A stretch of DNA of 64,000 nt from positions 248,001 to 312,000 of the forward strand of contig NZ_JACJPI010000064.1 of NCBI RefSeq assembly GCF_014695975.1. The letters run 5' to 3'. The notes beneath the pieces were generated by a model, which saw only the letters and a program-made list of their open reading frames with translations, made no database searches and was not told the origin of the DNA. This stretch comes from Leptolyngbya sp. FACHB-321. Lineage in GTDB: Bacteria; Cyanobacteriota; Cyanobacteriia; Leptolyngbyales; Leptolyngbyaceae. Below, one piece after another: positions 17,556 to 63,324 of the stretch (position 1 is the first letter of the stretch; every line of letters begins with the position of its first letter). The translations under genes were made by a program, and so were the position numbers.

Positions 17556-17606
17556 CAGACAAGCTGATAGCGATCGGCTGTCAGCCGATCGCTATCAGCT
17601 TGTCTG
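17556..17606. repeat. Perfect 51-bp palindrome between purB and the GTPase gene
   Basis: Arms of 25 bp (17556-17580 and 17582-17606) are exact reverse complements around a single T. The stop codon and last codons of the minus-strand GTPase gene lie inside the right arm. As RNA it would form a very stable hairpin on either strand and could be a bidirectional terminator for the two convergent genes, although no T-run follows. The GCGATCGGC core resembles HIP1. Confidence 0.9.
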
Positions 17607-18962
17607 CTTGAAGCGCTCTTTTGCCGTAGCAAAGGATGCGTTCATTACCTGTTGAATTCGTTTGGGGTCAGGTTTTTTGCCGCCCATTAAGTCGCCAAAG
17701 TAAACGCAGGCAGCTTCACCCAGTGCCCAGGTATAAGCGGCTGCCCACGATGCTGCAATCACGCTGCCGAAGCCAGGGATGAATTTGATTAGTTCGCGCC
17801 CGATCGCCTGTGCCAAAAAACCACCGCCGATCGCGCTGACGACTCCGCCTGCCTGCGATGGCGACAGTGTTTGCCCATACAGTTGTCCTAACAACCCTAC
17901 TAACGAACCCTGTAACGCAGTCAAAACGGGCATCGTTGCAAAGGGTAACGGCACAGCGGCAAGGGTTGCCGCCATAATCGCAAAGGGCAGAATGTAGCGG
18001 CGACCTGCGTCTCTGTAAAGGTTGCCAAGCTGCTGTCCGGCTGTATCGTCTAGAAGCTGATGGATGGCGCGAGCTTCTGCCTCTGGCAATAAATCGGCTA
18101 AAGCATTGACCAATGCCTCCACACCATAAAACGTTGGCGTAAACTCGTCTTCCTCCAATGTAAAGTCAATCATGACTGCGCTATCAAACAACCCCTTGAA
18201 CGATTCTTGTACAGCCGCAAATGCTCGGTTCACCGCCTCTACATCGGGGGGATAAGCGGGATGATCAGTGCGATCGGCTGGGTAGAGTTCGTGAAGGGAC
18301 GTAACAGCTAGTAAGCAAGGCACATCTGGATGCTGCTTACGGATCGTGCTAGCAATCTGATGTAGCGTATCAGTCGCAAAATCATTGATTTTGACGGTAA
18401 GAATCAGGACTCTGGCACGACGGTTTTCGTTAGGCTGAAGTTCGCTGATAAGCTCCTGCGCGATCGCTCCTGTCTCCCGAGAAACATCGCCCAAACCAAC
18501 CGTATCGGTAAAAATGAGCAATGGTAGATCGCTTGTAGGGTAGCTATAGCGCTGCGTGTTCTGGGTATGCGGTCGAAAGCCTTGCCCAACAATAGCGGCA
18601 GAAACTCCAGTTAACCCTCGCACAAGCGAGCTTTTGCCTGCCTGTGGCTTGCCTACTAGCAGTGCCTCAGTGGTAGGCAACTGTCCCCGCACCTGCTCCA
18701 AAATCTCGGCAATCTCGGCTTCACTAACACTAAACCAGGACATTAAAGTGTCTGTAACCCACTGTACAGGTACAAGGCGCTTCCATCCTTTTAGGGAGCT
18801 TAGAATGTCATACCAAAGAGCCGCTGATGTCTCCACTACTGAGGTAGAAACGATAGCGGCATCCTTCGGCTTTTTGGTTACATCTGAAGGTTGCACTTCA
18901 GGTAATTCAGAGTTCGGCTTTTCGGTTACGTCTGAAGGCTGCACTTCAGGTAGTTCAGACAT
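17595..18962 (-). CDS. Dynamin/Era-like GTPase with C-terminal DUF697-type membrane domain
   Basis: A 455-residue protein in three parts. Residues 1-35 contain two near-identical copies of SELPEVQPSDVT(E/K)KP. A G domain follows: P-loop VGKPQAGKSSLVRG near 100-113, switch TQRYSYPTSDLPLL and G3 DTVGLGD; the usual NKxD is replaced by a TSLHEL-type segment. The C-terminal 130 residues are hydrophobic (PFAIMAATLAAVPLPFATMP ... WALGEAACVYFGDLMGG), as in DUF697/YcjF-type GTPases that sit on membranes. The role is probably in membrane or envelope maintenance; this is inference. Its last codons lie within the 51-bp palindrome. Confidence 0.85.
   Translation of the reverse strand: MSELPEVQPSDVTEKPNSELPEVQPSDVTKKPKDAAIVSTSVVETSAALWYDILSSLKGWKRLVPVQWVTDTLMSWFSVSEAEIAEILEQVRGQLPTTEALLVGKPQAGKSSLVRGLTGVSAAIVGQGFRPHTQNTQRYSYPTSDLPLLIFTDTVGLGDVSRETGAIAQELISELQPNENRRARVLILTVKINDFATDTLHQIASTIRKQHPDVPCLLAVTSLHELYPADRTDHPAYPPDVEAVNRAFAAVQESFKGLFDSAVMIDFTLEEDEFTPTFYGVEALVNALADLLPEAEARAIHQLLDDTAGQQLGNLYRDAGRRYILPFAIMAATLAAVPLPFATMPVLTALQGSLVGLLGQLYGQTLSPSQAGGVVSAIGGGFLAQAIGRELIKFIPGFGSVIAASWAAAYTWALGEAACVYFGDLMGGKKPDPKRIQQVMNASFATAKERFKQTS
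18885..18962 (-). repeat. In-gene tandem duplication at the GTPase N-terminus
   Basis: Two copies of a 48-bp unit encode SELPEVQPSDVTEKPN and SELPEVQPSDVTKKPK. The copies differ at only a few bases, indicating a recent duplication; unit length is a multiple of three so the frame is kept. Confidence 0.85.
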
Positions 18963-24750: not shown

Positions 24751-26481
24751 GTGAGTGAACTGGAATGTGTAGCGTATGGTGTGGGAGCAGATGAGGGCAT
24801 CTGCCTTCTGCTGAAGCTTGGGCGCTATCGTGTTTTATTGGACTGTGGGCTGGCAGATCTCTCTACGCTGCTGGCAGAAACGACGGTTCCTCCAGCCGAT
24901 TTAGTGTTGTGCAGTCATGCTCATGCCGATCACGCGAGGGGATTGTTGGCACTGCATCAAGCGTTTCCTCAGCTACCCATTTATGCAAGTGAGGTGACGA
25001 CACAACTGCTGCCGCTGAACTGGTCTAACGTGAACCATGATGCCGATCGCAATGTAAGGGTGATCGAGCCATCACCCCTTTGTCATGCCTTACCCTGGCG
25101 CACGCCGATCGAGTTTTGTGATGGTCTCAGCGTTGAGCTGTATCCAGCAGGGCATTTGCCTGGTGCAGCGGCATTTTTGCTCACCTATGCACCGTTGCCA
25201 GAGGACGATCACCCAGCTCGTGCCTACACCATTTTTTATACAGGCGACTTTTTTCTTTCGAATGCGCGACTGGTCGAAGGGCTGCCCCTGGAAGAACTGC
25301 GAGGCATTGCCCCGGATGTCTTGATTGTGGAGGGTAGCTACGGCACGGCACGACATCCCCACCGTCGTCAGCAAGAAAATCAACTGGCAGAACGCATTGA
25401 CCGAGCGATCGTCAACCAGCAATCGATCTTGCTACCAACGCCAGCGCTAGGGTTAGGGCAAGAACTCTTGATGCTATTGCGGAGCCATCATTATTTCACT
25501 GGGCGTGATCTAGATATCTGGGTAGATAGCACGGTTGCCGCAGGCTGTGATGCCTATATGGAGATCTTGCCTCATCTGCCGACTGCGGTGCAAAACTTTG
25601 CTCGGCATCAATCCCTTTTTTGGGATGAGCGCGTGCGTCCACGGGTGCGTGCGCTAACCCCAGACCAGCAGTTCCATTTGGAGACGCATCCTGCGATCGT
25701 GCTGGCTGATGAAGCTGCTGATCTGAGCCAATACTATGGCACCAACCCTGATGCCTGGTTAATCTTGCAGCCACAGCAACCTCACTTGGCGGGAGAGGAG
25801 CGAGGAGAGAGGGGAGAAGAGAAAGATGAAAGGGAGGCAGGGGAAGCAGGCGTAGCAAAGAGGCGAAATGATTCTTACCCCTCACCCCTCACCCCTCTCA
25901 CCGAAACCTACCTGCTGGCGCAGCATGGCGATGGTCCTGGTACAGCGCAGCTCATTCATAACTTGCGCCCACAGCACGTAGTTTTCATTCATGGTTCGCC
26001 CACTTATTTGGCAGATCTCGCAGGCTTAGAAGAACTGCACAACCGCTATCACCTGCACACACCGTCTGCAAATAGCCTGGTGGAACTGCCGATCGGCGAG
26101 ACGTTTTTACATACTGCTGCGCCTGAAGCTAGTTATGAAGGTGAATTGACCGAACTCAACACGATTGTCAGTATTACTTTACCGGATGCAATTACAGCCG
26201 ATCCGCGCTGGCGGCAATTAGCCGATACAGGACTAGTAGAGGCTCGCTGGCAGGGTGATGAACTGGTCTTGCGGGGTCTGCCACAACGGGAACTCCTGCG
26301 GCCTAGCGATCGCCTGCTGGACTGGGTAGACGGTAATTCGCCGCTGCGTAGCTGCTGTGGCAATTGTCGCCATTATCGTGGACAACGCTGCTGGAATCAG
26401 CTTTCGCCCTTGTTTGAGTTTAAGGTTGCACCAGAAGGTTTTTGTCCCGTCTTTGAGCCGCTTCAACCGCCAGAGGATTAA
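24751..26481 (+). CDS. Beta-CASP-type metallo-beta-lactamase fold hydrolase with in-frame repeat insertion
   Basis: A 576-residue protein starting at a GTG. The metallo-beta-lactamase core has the metal motif SHAHADHARG at about 55-64, further ligands in PAGHLPGAAAF and YTGDFF, then a beta-CASP-like region (EGSYGTARHPHRRQQENQLAERI ... PALGLGQELL). Such proteins are RNA nucleases or processing factors. Near residues 348-385 a low-complexity Glu/Arg/Gly then Pro/Ser/Thr stretch interrupts the fold; its DNA is a heptamer repeat like those in spacers. The C-terminus carries CCGNCRHYRGQRC plus FCPVF, a possible zinc ribbon. RNA cleavage is inference. Confidence 0.85.
   Translation: MSELECVAYGVGADEGICLLLKLGRYRVLLDCGLADLSTLLAETTVPPADLVLCSHAHADHARGLLALHQAFPQLPIYASEVTTQLLPLNWSNVNHDADRNVRVIEPSPLCHALPWRTPIEFCDGLSVELYPAGHLPGAAAFLLTYAPLPEDDHPARAYTIFYTGDFFLSNARLVEGLPLEELRGIAPDVLIVEGSYGTARHPHRRQQENQLAERIDRAIVNQQSILLPTPALGLGQELLMLLRSHHYFTGRDLDIWVDSTVAAGCDAYMEILPHLPTAVQNFARHQSLFWDERVRPRVRALTPDQQFHLETHPAIVLADEAADLSQYYGTNPDAWLILQPQQPHLAGEERGERGEEKDEREAGEAGVAKRRNDSYPSPLTPLTETYLLAQHGDGPGTAQLIHNLRPQHVVFIHGSPTYLADLAGLEELHNRYHLHTPSANSLVELPIGETFLHTAAPEASYEGELTELNTIVSITLPDAITADPRWRQLADTGLVEARWQGDELVLRGLPQRELLRPSDRLLDWVDGNSPLRSCCGNCRHYRGQRCWNQLSPLFEFKVAPEGFCPVFEPLQPPED
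25793..25905 (+). repeat. Heptamer-type repeat inside a coding sequence
   Basis: Purine-rich 7-bp units (GGAGAGG, AGCGAGG, AGAGAGG, GGAGAAG and so on) pass into pyrimidine-rich CCCTCAC units. The two halves are partly complementary, so the element could fold. It matches the style of spacer repeats at 30617-30790 and elsewhere but here adds about 37 codons in frame. Confidence 0.75.
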
Positions 26482-26676: not shown

Positions 26677-28023
26677 ATGAAACCCCTCGCTTCAGCTAAT
26701 CGTGTTAAACCTGCTAAAGCTGTGAGCCTAGCGATCGCAGTGCTAGCGATCGGTTTTCTCTCTGCTGCCTGTCAAGAAGCCGCTGCACCGCCAGCCAGTA
26801 CTTCTGCTGGTTCACCGTCACCTGGGACACCTTCTGCTGGTGATGCCAAAAGCCTAAAAATTGGCACCCTGCTCCCTGCAACGGGCGACCTGGCTTCTGT
26901 CGGTCAGCCAATGCTAGCGGCAGTCCCACTACTGGTCGAAACCGTTAACCAGTGCGGTGGAGTGAATGGCGCTCCAGTAACGCTCTTAGCCAACACCGAT
27001 GACCAAACTGACCCAACGGCGGGTGCAGACGGTATGACCAAGCTCGCAGAAGTGGATAAAGTAGCAGGCGTGGTCGGGTCATTCGCTAGCAGCGTTTCGG
27101 CGGCGGCAATTCCGATCGCTATTCGTAACAAGGTAATGCTCGTCTCCCCAGGCAGCACCAGCCCAGTCTTTACAGAACGAGGTCAAAAAGGCGAGTTTCA
27201 GGGCTACTGGGCGCGCACAGCTCCACCAGATACTTACCAGGCGCGGGCACTGGCAAAGCTTGCCTATGAAAGAGGCATTCGACGAGCAGCCACGGTGGTC
27301 ATCAACAACGATTACGGCAGAGGGTTTGAGAAAGAATTTGTGCAGGCGTTCAAAACGCTCGGCGGCACCATCACCAATGAAGCAAAGCCTGCTCGCTATG
27401 ACCCCAAAGCCACCACGTTTGCAACCGAAGCTCAAGCTGCCTTTGGCAATAAGCCGGAAGGAGTGGCTGCGGTTGCCTATGCCGAAACAGGTGCGCTGTT
27501 GCTGAAAACTGCTTACGAGCAAGGGCTAAGTAAAGGGGTGCAAATTCTACTGACTGATGGTTCCAAGTCTGATCAATTTGCTACTCAAGTAGGCAAGACA
27601 AGCGATGGCAAATTTATTCTGCAAGACGCGGTGGGGACCATTCCCGGTGCTGACGGCAAAGCGCTTGATGCATTGACCAAACTCTGGCAGGCAAAATTTA
27701 AGCAAGCCCCTGCTGCGTATGCACCCCAATCATGGGATGCTGCTGCCTTGCTGGTACTCGCTGCTCAAGCTGCTAAAGCAAATACCGGTGATGCAATTAA
27801 GAGCAAGATTCTTGACGTGGCAAATGGTCCTGGTAAGGACGTAAGCGACGTGTGTGAAGGGCTGAAGCTATTGAGCCAGGGAGAAACCATCAACTACCAG
27901 GGAGCTAGCGGCAACGTCGATATTGACAAGAACGGTGATGTCTCTGGTGTCTATGACGTGTGGCAAGTGGCAGCAGACGGCACGCTAAAGACGGTTAGTA
28001 AGGTGAGTCCTGCAACCAAGTAG
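26677..28023 (+). CDS. ABC transporter substrate-binding lipoprotein, branched-chain amino acid (LivJ) type
   Basis: The ATG at 26677 gives a lipoprotein signal (KPAKAVSLAIAVLAIGF, then SAAC with Cys32); the frame is open upstream to a GTG at 26602. After a Ser/Pro/Gly linker the type I periplasmic binding fold begins: LKIGTLLPATGDLASVGQP, VETVNQCGGVNGAPV, VAGVVGSFASSVSAAA, then VVINNDYGRGFEKEF. This family binds branched-chain amino acids, amides or urea in the periplasm. No permease or ATPase gene is next to it, so it is an orphan component that must pair with a transporter elsewhere or act as a sensor. Substrate unknown. Confidence 0.9.
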   Translation: MKPLASANRVKPAKAVSLAIAVLAIGFLSAACQEAAAPPASTSAGSPSPGTPSAGDAKSLKIGTLLPATGDLASVGQPMLAAVPLLVETVNQCGGVNGAPVTLLANTDDQTDPTAGADGMTKLAEVDKVAGVVGSFASSVSAAAIPIAIRNKVMLVSPGSTSPVFTERGQKGEFQGYWARTAPPDTYQARALAKLAYERGIRRAATVVINNDYGRGFEKEFVQAFKTLGGTITNEAKPARYDPKATTFATEAQAAFGNKPEGVAAVAYAETGALLLKTAYEQGLSKGVQILLTDGSKSDQFATQVGKTSDGKFILQDAVGTIPGADGKALDALTKLWQAKFKQAPAAYAPQSWDAAALLVLAAQAAKANTGDAIKSKILDVANGPGKDVSDVCEGLKLLSQGETINYQGASGNVDIDKNGDVSGVYDVWQVAADGTLKTVSKVSPATK

Positions 28024-28051
28024 GGAGTAGGGAGTAGGGAGTAGGGAGTGA
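28021..28051 (+). repeat. Perfect heptamer tandem repeat (AGGGAGT)n
   Basis: Four copies of TAGGGAG run directly from the stop codon of the binding-protein gene. This is a classical short tandem repeat of cyanobacterial genomes. Confidence 0.95.
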
Positions 28052-28055
28052 AACT

Positions 28056-32696: not shown

Positions 32697-32823
32697 TATT
32701 AGAAGGCAGAAGGCAGAAGGCAAAAGGCAAAAAGCTGTACTCAAAGCTCTCTAACGAAGCGGCGCAAAGCGCTACTCAAAACTCAAAACTTCCCCCCACT
32801 CCCTACTCCCTACTCCCCACCCC
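32697..32823 (+). repeat. Heptamer-repeat spacer between rsmA and ispE
   Basis: GAAGGCA-type units (32702-32735) are followed by pyrimidine-rich CTCCCTA-type units (about 32790-32818), both with a 7-bp period. The two arms are roughly complementary in composition. Confidence 0.75.
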
Positions 32824-37005: not shown

Positions 37006-37015
37006 GGGAATGAAA

Positions 37016-37116
37016 AGAAGGGATAAAGGATAAAGGATAAAGGATAAAAGGCATCTAAATTTAGATATCTTTATCCTTCTGCCCTTGGCCTTCTGCCCTC
37101 TGCCTTTTACCTTCTA
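37016..37116. repeat. Heptamer repeats between murQ and the DUF3110 gene
   Basis: Four tandem GGATAAA units are followed by a pyrimidine-rich CCTTCTG/CCCTCTG series, both 7-bp periodic. Part of the second series lies directly at the end of the DUF3110 gene. Confidence 0.8.
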
Positions 37117-58696: not shown

Positions 58697-60322
58697 ATGC
58701 TTGATCGTCCCCTGTCTACTGCCAAGCCGACTGCTACCCCCTTCATCCCGCATTACGACTTGATCAAGGAACTCGACTTGATGCTGCGGGCACACTATCC
58801 GTTGCTTTACATCGTGGCGGTTGAAGAAGAACCTGTTGAGGCAGTCTTACGGCAAGTTGCAGCCCAAGCGCAGCCAATTCGTAGCGTGCTCCTGTGGGAC
58901 ATTGTGCGTGGTTGGAATGATAACAGCACGGCAAAAGGCAGTGTGATGGCAGCGCTCGATCGCATCAGCAAAGCGCCAGCCGATGAAGACACTATCTTTG
59001 TTCTCTGCGACCTCCATCCACTGTTGAGAAACGCAGCCAGCGACAAAAATGCGCCGATTGTGCGCGAAATCAAGAATCTTGCGAAAGACTTGAAGCGCAC
59101 CCGCAAGACCCTGGTATTGATCAGCCATACGCTGGAACTGCCGATCGAGCTAGCTGAGGCAGTCACCGTCATTGATTTTCCGCTGCCGAATCCGCAGGAG
59201 ATTGATCATTTGATTGCCCAGTTAGTGGCACCAGAAGCGCTGAAAGTGAAAGGATTGGCGCGAGAACAACTGGTGAAAGCGTGTCAGGGCTTGAGTGAAA
59301 CACGGATTCAGCGCGTTTTGGCAAAGGCACTGGCGGCAAGGCAGCAGGTCAGTGAAGCCGATATTGCGGGCGTGCTAGAGGCAAAGCAACAGGCTATTCG
59401 GCAAACGGGCATTCTGGAATTTCTCACCGTGCGGGATTCGCTCAAAAGCGTGGGCGGGTTAGAGAACCTGAAGCAATGGGTACGGATGCGGCAGGATGTG
59501 TTTACCGAAGAGGCACGGCGCTACGGCATTCGCAATCCTAAAGGCGTGCTGCTGGTGGGCATTCAGGGCACGGGCAAATCGCTCTCAGCCAAGACGATCG
59601 CCCATGAATGGCGGCTCCCCTTACTGCGGCTTGATACAGGACGGTTGTTTGGCGGCATTGTTGGTGAAAGTGAAAGCCGTGTGCGCCAGATGATTCAACT
59701 TTCTGAGGCGATCGCGCCCTGTGTGCTGTGGATTGACGAAATCGACAAAGCCTTTGGCAATATTAACAGCGGCTCAGATGGCGATTCGGGCACTAGCCGT
59801 CGCGTGTTTGGCAGCCTTATTACCTGGATGCAAGAAAAGACTAGCCCCGTCTTCATCGTTGCCACCGCTAATAATGTGCAAATTCTGCCTGCTGAACTGC
59901 TGCGAAAAGGGCGCTTCGACGAAATTTTCTTCCTGAACCTTCCCACCGAACCAGAACGGCAGGATATCTTTAAAGTGCACTTACAACGCTTGCGCCCCAC
60001 TCGCTTACGAGAGTTTGACGTGGGATTGCTGGCACGGCAGGCAAAGAACTTCAGCGGTGCCGAAATTGAGCAGGTGATTATCGAAGCCATGCATCAAGCC
60101 TTTGGGCGCGGCAGCAGCGGACAACGGCAAGACTTCACTACAGAAGATATCGTACGATCGATCGAAGAAACCGTTCCCCTCGCCGCGATCGCCCGTGACC
60201 AGATTGATCGCCTTAAACAATGGGCAGCCGAAGCAGGCGCACGCACCGCTTCACAAGACGTTCAGCTTGTTGAGGAACTGAAACGTCTCACCATTCAGCG
60301 AGGGATGAGGGATGAAGTATGA
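58697..60322 (+). CDS. ycf46: Ycf46-type AAA ATPase
   Basis: A 541-residue cytoplasmic protein. The N-terminal 240 residues (LIKELDLMLRAHYPLLYIVAVEEEP ...) are special to the Ycf46 family. The AAA module has Walker A GIQGTGKSLSAKTIA near 289, Walker B CVLWIDEIDKA near 341, and sensor motifs VATANNV and LRKGRFDEIF. Homologues are encoded in red-algal plastids; in Synechocystis a homologue has been linked to inorganic carbon use, as I recall. It is followed by ycf35, the usual cyanobacterial neighbour. The last codons overlap a small heptamer-like repeat. Confidence 0.95.
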   Translation: MLDRPLSTAKPTATPFIPHYDLIKELDLMLRAHYPLLYIVAVEEEPVEAVLRQVAAQAQPIRSVLLWDIVRGWNDNSTAKGSVMAALDRISKAPADEDTIFVLCDLHPLLRNAASDKNAPIVREIKNLAKDLKRTRKTLVLISHTLELPIELAEAVTVIDFPLPNPQEIDHLIAQLVAPEALKVKGLAREQLVKACQGLSETRIQRVLAKALAARQQVSEADIAGVLEAKQQAIRQTGILEFLTVRDSLKSVGGLENLKQWVRMRQDVFTEEARRYGIRNPKGVLLVGIQGTGKSLSAKTIAHEWRLPLLRLDTGRLFGGIVGESESRVRQMIQLSEAIAPCVLWIDEIDKAFGNINSGSDGDSGTSRRVFGSLITWMQEKTSPVFIVATANNVQILPAELLRKGRFDEIFFLNLPTEPERQDIFKVHLQRLRPTRLREFDVGLLARQAKNFSGAEIEQVIIEAMHQAFGRGSSGQRQDFTTEDIVRSIEETVPLAAIARDQIDRLKQWAAEAGARTASQDVQLVEELKRLTIQRGMRDEV

Positions 60323-60429
60323 GGGATGAAGTATGAATGATAAGTTTTGAGTTTGGAACGGACCTCTGCCTTTTGTGCCTCCCTACCCCTTCTGCCTTCT
60401 GCCTTTGCCCTTTAGCCTTTCCCCTTCCC
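60309..60429 (+). repeat. Heptamer-type repeats between ycf46 and ycf35
   Basis: GGATGAG/GGATGAA-type units reach into the end of ycf46 and a pyrimidine-rich CCTTCTG/CCTTTGC series runs to the ycf35 start. The ycf35 ribosome binding site is therefore weak or absent. Confidence 0.75.
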
Positions 60430-63287: not shown

Positions 63288-63324
63288 GGGAGGCAGAAGG
63301 CAGAAGGCAAAGGGCAGAGGGCGT
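63288..63324 (+). repeat. Heptamer repeat after thiS
   Basis: GGCAGAA / GGCAAAG / GGCAGAG units, 7-bp period, starting at the thiS stop codon. Confidence 0.85.

Follow-up and report, generated by a model that had tools for sequence, protein, structure and literature searches.

In filamentous cyanobacteria, small dispersed repeats (SDR) are often embedded in tandem heptamers; they are not known to include in-frame protein inserts. Those of Nostoc punctiforme, reportedly the subject of work by Elhai et al. in 2008, are said to be tiny and often to lie within such heptamers.

The cyanobacterial STRR and the G-rich heptamers of Nostoc share with the present repeats 7-base units and a genome-wide, mostly intergenic distribution, as described in the available part of PMC4692102, according to which 68% of the GGGGA(C/T)T repeats of Nostoc PCC 7120 are intergenic and the intragenic fraction exceeds that of xanthomonads. 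In that part of the paper intragenic copies are counted, whereas here they are analysed as in-frame inserts at conserved loops, and the repeats described below differ from it in having several unit families and a two-arm architecture. To judge by its title, Vioque 1997 places STRR within an RNA gene, rnpB. Another likeness is to the Rickettsia palindromic elements (RPE), small palindromic repeats of about 150 bp that lie in frame in unrelated housekeeping genes and whose encoded peptide is conserved (Ogata et al. 2000, 2002, as excerpted from the review PMC10969869). In-frame insertion in unrelated conserved genes and an inverted-repeat structure are found here as well, but the conserved encoded peptide of RPE proper is not, as peptides vary by species at one site; going by the excerpted description, the unit here is 7 bp long, the peptide is species-specific and the element is seemingly rewritten in place. 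PARCELs, in the excerpt of PMC2996958, are likewise coding sequences with dyad symmetry that are shuffled within genomes, but they comprise a 25-residue amphipathic motif in ORFs of unassigned function, whereas here spacer heptamers lie in housekeeping enzymes. The section of PMC8619395 that defines repeats gives units of 1–6 bp, so that heptamers fall outside its reach, and in the accessible portions of PMC3922686 and PMC3542288 heptamers are mentioned in the reference lists only. We recognised no earlier report of in-frame heptamers in cyanobacterial genes in the literature searched, which excludes most subscription journals. Our finding combines STRR-type heptamers with RPE-like in-frame insertion; it departs from both in that the protein loops stay put but are filled by different repeat families according to the pool of the genome.

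Results

The insert in the β-CASP gene

The window, a 64,000-nucleotide stretch of Leptolyngbya sp. FACHB-321 (contig NZ_JACJPI010000064.1, positions 248,001 to 312,000), carries a gene whose reading frame runs uninterrupted across a stretch of repeats. The features discussed below are as follows.

24751–26481, + strand: MBL/β-CASP hydrolase gene with GTG start, 576 aa, host of the insert (Pfam and solved-structure relatives)
25786–25902, + strand: variable linker, aa 346–384, with an in-frame spacer-type composite repeat (alignment, AlphaFold model)
25791–25850, + strand: purine-rich arm, weakly heptameric (limits set by eye; inverted repeat, lag scores)
25851–25873, + strand: middle segment separating the arms (sequence)
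25874–25902, + strand: pyrimidine-rich arm, about four ACCCCTC-type heptamers (TRF, lag-7 score)
32699–32823, no strand assigned: spacer copy of the same architecture, with AGAAGGC purine heptamers, a middle with ACTCAAAACTCAAAAC and ACTCCCT pyrimidine heptamers

Judged from its sequence, the 576-residue protein has a CPSF/RNase-J-like MBL-β-CASP fold with an RMMBL-like segment: Lactamase_B_2 scored above its cut-off (42.7 bits against 27) and RMMBL below (18.1 bits against 21.6), and, among solved structures, CPSF73, Integrator subunit 11 and Thermus TTHA0252 come out best in sequence comparison. A fold search with the AlphaFold model (mean pLDDT 73.6) placed Integrator subunit 11 (IntS11), CPSF73 and archaeal CPSF among the best matches, and an alignment of 41 sequences shows no variation at H56, A57, H58 and H61 and almost none at D60. 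The linker comprises 39 codons, encodes the peptide LAGEERGERGEEKDEREAGEAGVAKRRNDSYPSPLTPLT and is flanked by the segments WLILQPQQPH and ETYLLAQH. An earlier note on this DNA had proposed an in-frame heptamer insert in a β-CASP enzyme; the open frame and the heptamers stand, and the boundaries are redrawn to 25786–25902. The 39-residue loop is predicted to be mostly disordered, with pLDDT below 50 at residues 347–377 and neither helix nor strand from residue 351 to 382 of the model.

The purine-then-pyrimidine 7-bp repeat described in the earlier note is clear in the pyrimidine arm, where lag-7 identity is 0.86 (z 4.8) and Tandem Repeats Finder (TRF) reports three copies of ACCCCTC at 100% (25877–25897), and weak in the purine arm, where lag 7 reaches z 1.9 and lag 9 is higher (z 3.1). 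Across the entire insert lag 9 (z 5.6) slightly exceeds lag 7 (z 5.2), which makes the periodicity in part codon-like. Between them the arms form an inverted repeat of 22 nt that is 82% complementary. As single-stranded RNA the insert is unexceptional (fold z −1.3; 17 of 200 shuffles equally stable), and an Rfam scan of it returned seven matches up to E 1, with no family at gathering score. The best, MIR1507 (27.6 bits against a gathering score of 73, E 0.0006), was attributed to chance, and the microRNA and lncRNA matches, all far below gathering score, were rejected as low-complexity hairpin resemblance. When the insert was searched against its own genome for a donor copy, the top non-self match was 68 bp long at 76% (E 3e-5), and no recent donor was found. 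The window insert alone is modest evidence; the strength of the case comes from relatives and from the remaining genome.

The linker in orthologues

By protein search, a relative is present in 41 of 42 family genomes, and 53 loci came from scanning the contigs of named genomes. With identical duplicate ORFs removed, every orthologue alignable at this position carries a variable linker, 16 to 60 residues long including flanking letters. Outside the genus it is mostly 20–40 residues (range 16–53), with sequences unrelated to that of the window; within the genus it is 48–60 residues, with one of 30, and most are E/R/G followed by P/S/T. The idea that the repeat interrupts an otherwise regular enzyme therefore needs amending, as a variable linker is present throughout and what is special to the genus is its length and its heptamer DNA. 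The earlier note had named an identical linker conserved in all orthologues as the outcome that would speak against it; this was looked for in the alignment and is absent.

The best 21-base lag-7 score of each linker was compared with those of 500 codon shuffles, L102, L107 and L112 being dropped for broken or partial ORFs. No shuffle reached the score in five of the seven genus members, and 0.2% did so in the sixth (L064); the seventh, L063, is aperiodic, with 20.8% of shuffles reaching the score. Among the 53 testable rows outside the genus (two more were too short), one is strongly periodic, L040 of another genus, with 17 of 21 matches, 0 of 500 shuffles and its own GGAGTGA heptamers in the β-CASP loop; L067 is weakly so (12 of 21 matches, 0.4% of shuffles), and the 1.4% of L081 is at chance level across 53 tests. 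The heptamer DNA is largely genus-limited, which favours the reading of the earlier note. The loop itself is thus old and its heptamer DNA a feature of the genus (six of seven members), with at least one independent arrival of heptamers outside it.

Heptamer arrays across the home genome and beyond

The window stretch is one case of a genome-wide phenomenon. We sampled 1,658,400 bases of the home genome (G000), read in stretches and amounting to about one quarter of it, in which a home-made codon-score caller found 1230 genes (78.6% coding), and defined an array as 18 matches in 21 at a given lag, with periods 1–3 removed. Lag 7 gave 83 arrays, 40 in genes, 34 in spacers and 9 at gene edges. 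At control lags 4, 5, 10, 11 and 13 there were none; lag 14, a multiple of 7, gave 52, and lags 6, 8, 9, 12, 15, 16, 17, 18 and 19 gave 8, 6, 4, 6, 10, 7, 4, 12 and 1, so that the highest non-multiple among lags 4–19 is lag 18, with 12. Tandem 7-bp units are thus dispersed in many genomic copies, as for STRR-type repeats.

The 40 in-gene arrays are spread over 26 called genes, and 33 of them, in 21 of these genes, are 60 codons or more away from either gene end; some of the seven terminal ones may sit upstream of true start codons, the caller being home-made. The in-gene share (40/83) is below that expected from the coding fraction (p 1e-9), which shows that genes filter arrays, although nearly half of the arrays are still in genes. 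When 23 of the 25 non-window genes were compared with Pfam (C37:199507 and C83:98976, which cross stretch ends, being omitted), 21 of the 23 proteins matched a family at 1e-5 or better, including SMC/RecN type, HerA-like ATPase, AnmK, DHH/RecJ, GH116, an AMP-binding enzyme and SbcC-like ATPase, as well as DNA polymerase III gamma/tau type, corrin/porphyrin methylase, ArsA, PriA and others; the putative names RecN, MenE, SbcC, DnaX and CobI are our own reading of the Pfam domains. AnmK aligns with a solved levoglucosan kinase in three pieces (4–108, 135–201 and 242–424), and both of its arrays fall in the two gaps.

In 400 kb of G035, of the same genus, there are 43 arrays (19 in genes, 7 at edges and 17 in spacers), against none at lags 5, 6, 10, 11 and 13 and one at lag 8. 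G012, of another genus in the same family, has three in 400 kb, hardly above its control lags (0 to 2 each). Across the 53 named loci, taken as gene plus flanks (369,658 bases), arrays occur in 14 loci, with more than one array in six, compared with one array each in three loci for four control lags combined. Arrays thus occur in other lineages as well, such as Chamaesiphon, and a distant lineage is possibly array-rich: locus L090 of Chamaesiphon polymorphus has five heptamer arrays in 4.6 kb.

The GH116 gene carries three heptamer arrays in the home genome (L154:13093–15894) and six in G035 (C9:268557–271481), and one pair of these between the two genomes (..SSFSLHPSSFIPQC.. and ..NLSSFILYPLSFILQC.., respectively) looks inherited. 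The window has more arrays outside called genes or at their edges, at 28015–28052, 32699–32823, 37015–37106, 60300–60336 and 63289–63322; the arrays at 28015 and 32699 overlap the end of the gene upstream of them or come to within a few bases of it. Unrelated to the heptamers is a 48-bp unit present twice at 18865–18959 (TRF score 162), at the 5′ end of the minus-strand ORF 17595–18962.

Two-arm architecture

In the G000 and G035 samples, 21 pairs of arrays lie within 160 bp of each other. Read on the plus strand, 16 of these run from purine to pyrimidine (10 in genes, 6 elsewhere) and none in reverse; two of the remaining pairs are of one type and three include a mixed array. Because this order is unchanged when the element is read on the opposite strand, the two-arm element has a fixed polarity. 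The kinship with spacer repeats claimed in the earlier note is borne out, as two-arm heptamers occur in spacers and in many other genes of the home genome. At some sites the middle of the element consists of ACTCAAAACTC-type 7-mers, translated as TQNSKLKTQNSKL or similar. Of the 83 arrays, 14 have a CTCAAAACT-like motif no further than 120 bp away, compared with 1.9% of 2000 random places; the motif, enriched but not universal, was rejected as a definition of the element.

Reading frame

That the frame is kept despite a 7-bp unit was noted at the outset as a peculiarity; the frame is indeed open, and there is no puzzle in it, since the total length alone must divide by three. Frame survival follows from the fact that many units are stop-free in every frame on both strands. 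In G000 and G035 together, the unit is stop-free on both strands in 40 of 59 in-gene arrays and 25 of 67 elsewhere (p 0.0007), and the array itself is open in all three coding-strand frames in 43 of 59 in-gene cases, whereas elsewhere 39 of 134 strand readings are (p 2e-8). This comparison is partly forced, because a called gene must be open, and sister genomes, which played no role in the choice of genes, are the fairer test.

In the seven genus genomes (G000 and G034–G039), one open frame spans the sites of RecJ, MenE and PriA in 7/7 and those of AnmK in 6/7, the AnmK of G037 being split over two contigs (L224, C20; L225, C579). We followed seven loop sites in these four proteins, PriA site 1 being excluded for lack of its marker peptide in the reference row, and called an entry strongly heptameric at 16 or more of 21 matches at lag 7. 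This holds for 37 of the 49 site–genome entries (home genome 7/7, G034–G038 29/35, G039 1/7). All 37 heptameric inserts are open in the reading frame, with lengths that are multiples of three, and the two unused frames are open in 16 and 19 of them; insert length takes 4 to 7 different values per site. Since all are open in the reading frame and the other frames are often closed, the inserts are presumably translated, with frame-breaking changes purged by selection. As a separate observation, the G037 contig breaks in AnmK fall near insert sites, and arrays may cause breaks in draft genomes.

Unit families and genome pools

At shared sites the unit families differ by species. RecJ site 1 encodes GGRRQEAEGRGQ from AGGAGGC and AAGGCAG units in the home genome, and AVSGQQSAVSGQ from CAGCGGT units in G035, with a similar peptide in G034. 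AnmK site 2 has CAGCGGT in G035, G034 and G036, and CACACCC with AAGGCAG in G038; PriA site 2 has AAGGCAG in the home genome, AGAGAGG in G034 and CAGCGGT with CAGCAGT in G035. The encoded peptides at one site differ between species accordingly, and CAGCGGT is listed at the seven sites in G034, G035 and G036 only. Pools were counted in whole genomes as three-unit matches with up to one mismatch, overlapping registers being counted:

AAGGCAG: G000 66, G034 5, G035 190, G036 51, G037 7, G038 248, G039 2
CAGCGGT: G000 10, G034 187, G035 708, G036 42, G037 0, G038 17, G039 0
CACACCC: G000 1, G034 75, G035 160, G036 54, G037 7, G038 233, G039 7

A reversed-pattern control gave zero for AAGGCAG and CAGCGGT; for CACACCC it is uninformative, the reversed unit being nearly itself. 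The families at the sites match the genomic pool: the observed match was reached in 0.019% of 100,000 label shuffles (p 0.00019), in a test that covers three unit families and 16 occupied slots tabulated by hand and that ignores relatedness. Against the match, AAGGCAG is common in G035 (190) yet unlisted at its seven sites, and CAGCGGT/CAGCAGT arrays lie in the home-genome genes C83:22372 and C37:200446, where the unit is rare.

The β-CASP protein tree, which includes three outgroups, puts G039 on the first branch, with support of 94/95 for the fork that unites the remaining six, a value under the tool's mark; a midpoint-rooted tree of RecJ, MenE and PriA agrees on G039 as first-branching, and both give the pairs G034+G035 and G036+G038 with good support. 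At RecJ 1, MenE 2, AnmK 1, AnmK 2 and PriA 2, heptamers occur in most of the six and are missing from G039, so that, most simply, occupation of these sites would have arisen on the branch to the six, or G039 would have lost it. Of the two remaining sites, both in MenE, site 1 has heptamers in G039 as well; at site 3 they are confined to G000 and G035. Some arms are common to the sister pair G034/G035 (RecJ site 1, AnmK site 2), and part of the pattern is therefore plain inheritance; with sisters sharing some arms and differing in others, inheritance and replacement both act at the loop sites.

Discussion

We consider it likely, with fairly good confidence, that permissive loops were colonised by spacer-type composite elements, which continue to be exchanged with the pool of the genome, the frame being kept by selection. 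The element would have a middle flanked by two heptamer arms, purine first and pyrimidine last; in the β-CASP loop it lies in frame, and there it is presumably translated as a disordered linker, nearly neutral for the enzyme. Many conserved proteins would have received such elements in their loops, most simply along the branch ancestral to six of the seven members of the genus. The fixed loop sites would later have been rewritten as elements were exchanged with the repeat pool of the host genome or re-inserted from it, so that the amino acids of a loop track whichever heptamer family is common in that genome, while selection discards events that shift the frame or introduce a stop. Dispersed arrays could have exchanged sequence through recombination or gene conversion, or the element itself could be mobile. 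The earlier note's idea of repeats entering genes gains support from the comparisons with orthologues and with spacer copies, with the correction that the loop predates the repeat.

The loops might instead be merely permissive, with the element of each species arriving separately and no ancestral copy rewritten. The GGAGTGA heptamers of L040, in a different genus, are what such independent insertions would look like, and even sister species have different unit families at several sites; yet 29 of 35 entries are filled at the same seven sites in the five sisters other than G039, and arms are shared within sister pairs, where a common ancestral occupation is simpler, and we regard separate arrivals as unlikely. 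Growth in place, in which an ancestral low-complexity linker lengthened by heptamer slippage without traffic from spacers, would suit the 4 to 7 insert lengths per site, and slippage is probably active within arms. It cannot, however, convert an AAGGCAG array to CAGCGGT or CACACCC at the same site in relatives, a kind of unit-family change already seen between species, and it explains neither families that follow the pool nor the two-arm polarity, which makes it very unlikely as the whole explanation.

Still less probable, in our view, is selection at the protein level for a charged and then Pro/Ser/Thr-rich disordered linker, with the DNA periodicity as a by-product. A variable linker is kept in all aligned orthologues (16 to 60 residues with flanking letters) and lag 9 is as strong as lag 7 across the window insert, as this explanation would have it, but codon shuffles are not as periodic as the real inserts in six of seven genus members, and the identical kind of repeat lies in non-coding spacers. 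Lastly, the inserts could be absent from the protein through RNA removal or ribosome skipping, as with hairpin-forming intervening sequences, which the inverted-repeat arms bring to mind; to this we give scarcely any credence, given that all 37 inserts are open with lengths that are multiples of three, a constraint that skipping would not impose, and that the RNA fold of the window insert is unexceptional (z −1.3), with no Rfam family at gathering score.

If colonisation of loops with continuing exchange is right, non-coding repeats steadily supply a free-living bacterium with new protein sequence across its whole genome, and comparing species one by one reveals both where that sequence comes from and which loops receive it. 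It then becomes testable in what way mobile or recombining micro-repeats pass the filters of reading frame, stop content and protein structure. A bolder version, which we put forward tentatively and lean slightly against, is that the coding loops and the spacers of a genome share one population of repeats with exchange between them, such that a spreading spacer family overwrites the loops of dozens of enzymes in frame through a putative 7-bp-array transfer activity; were that so, part of the proteome surface would evolve in concert with junk DNA. The preferred reading would also explain the low-complexity inserts GRRQKAEG, TQNSKLKTQNSKL and PLPTPHSPLPTPHS in conserved proteins of the genus, which otherwise resemble misassembly or new domains.

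MenE site 3 of L213–L216 (G037, G038, G036 and G039) carries another in-frame insert, ..SCSGGLGELGPQKAGDRGEVPRTQ.. and variants. This insert, which may be a different dispersed repeat translated into protein, is missing from G000, G034 and G035; heptamers take its place in two of these three.
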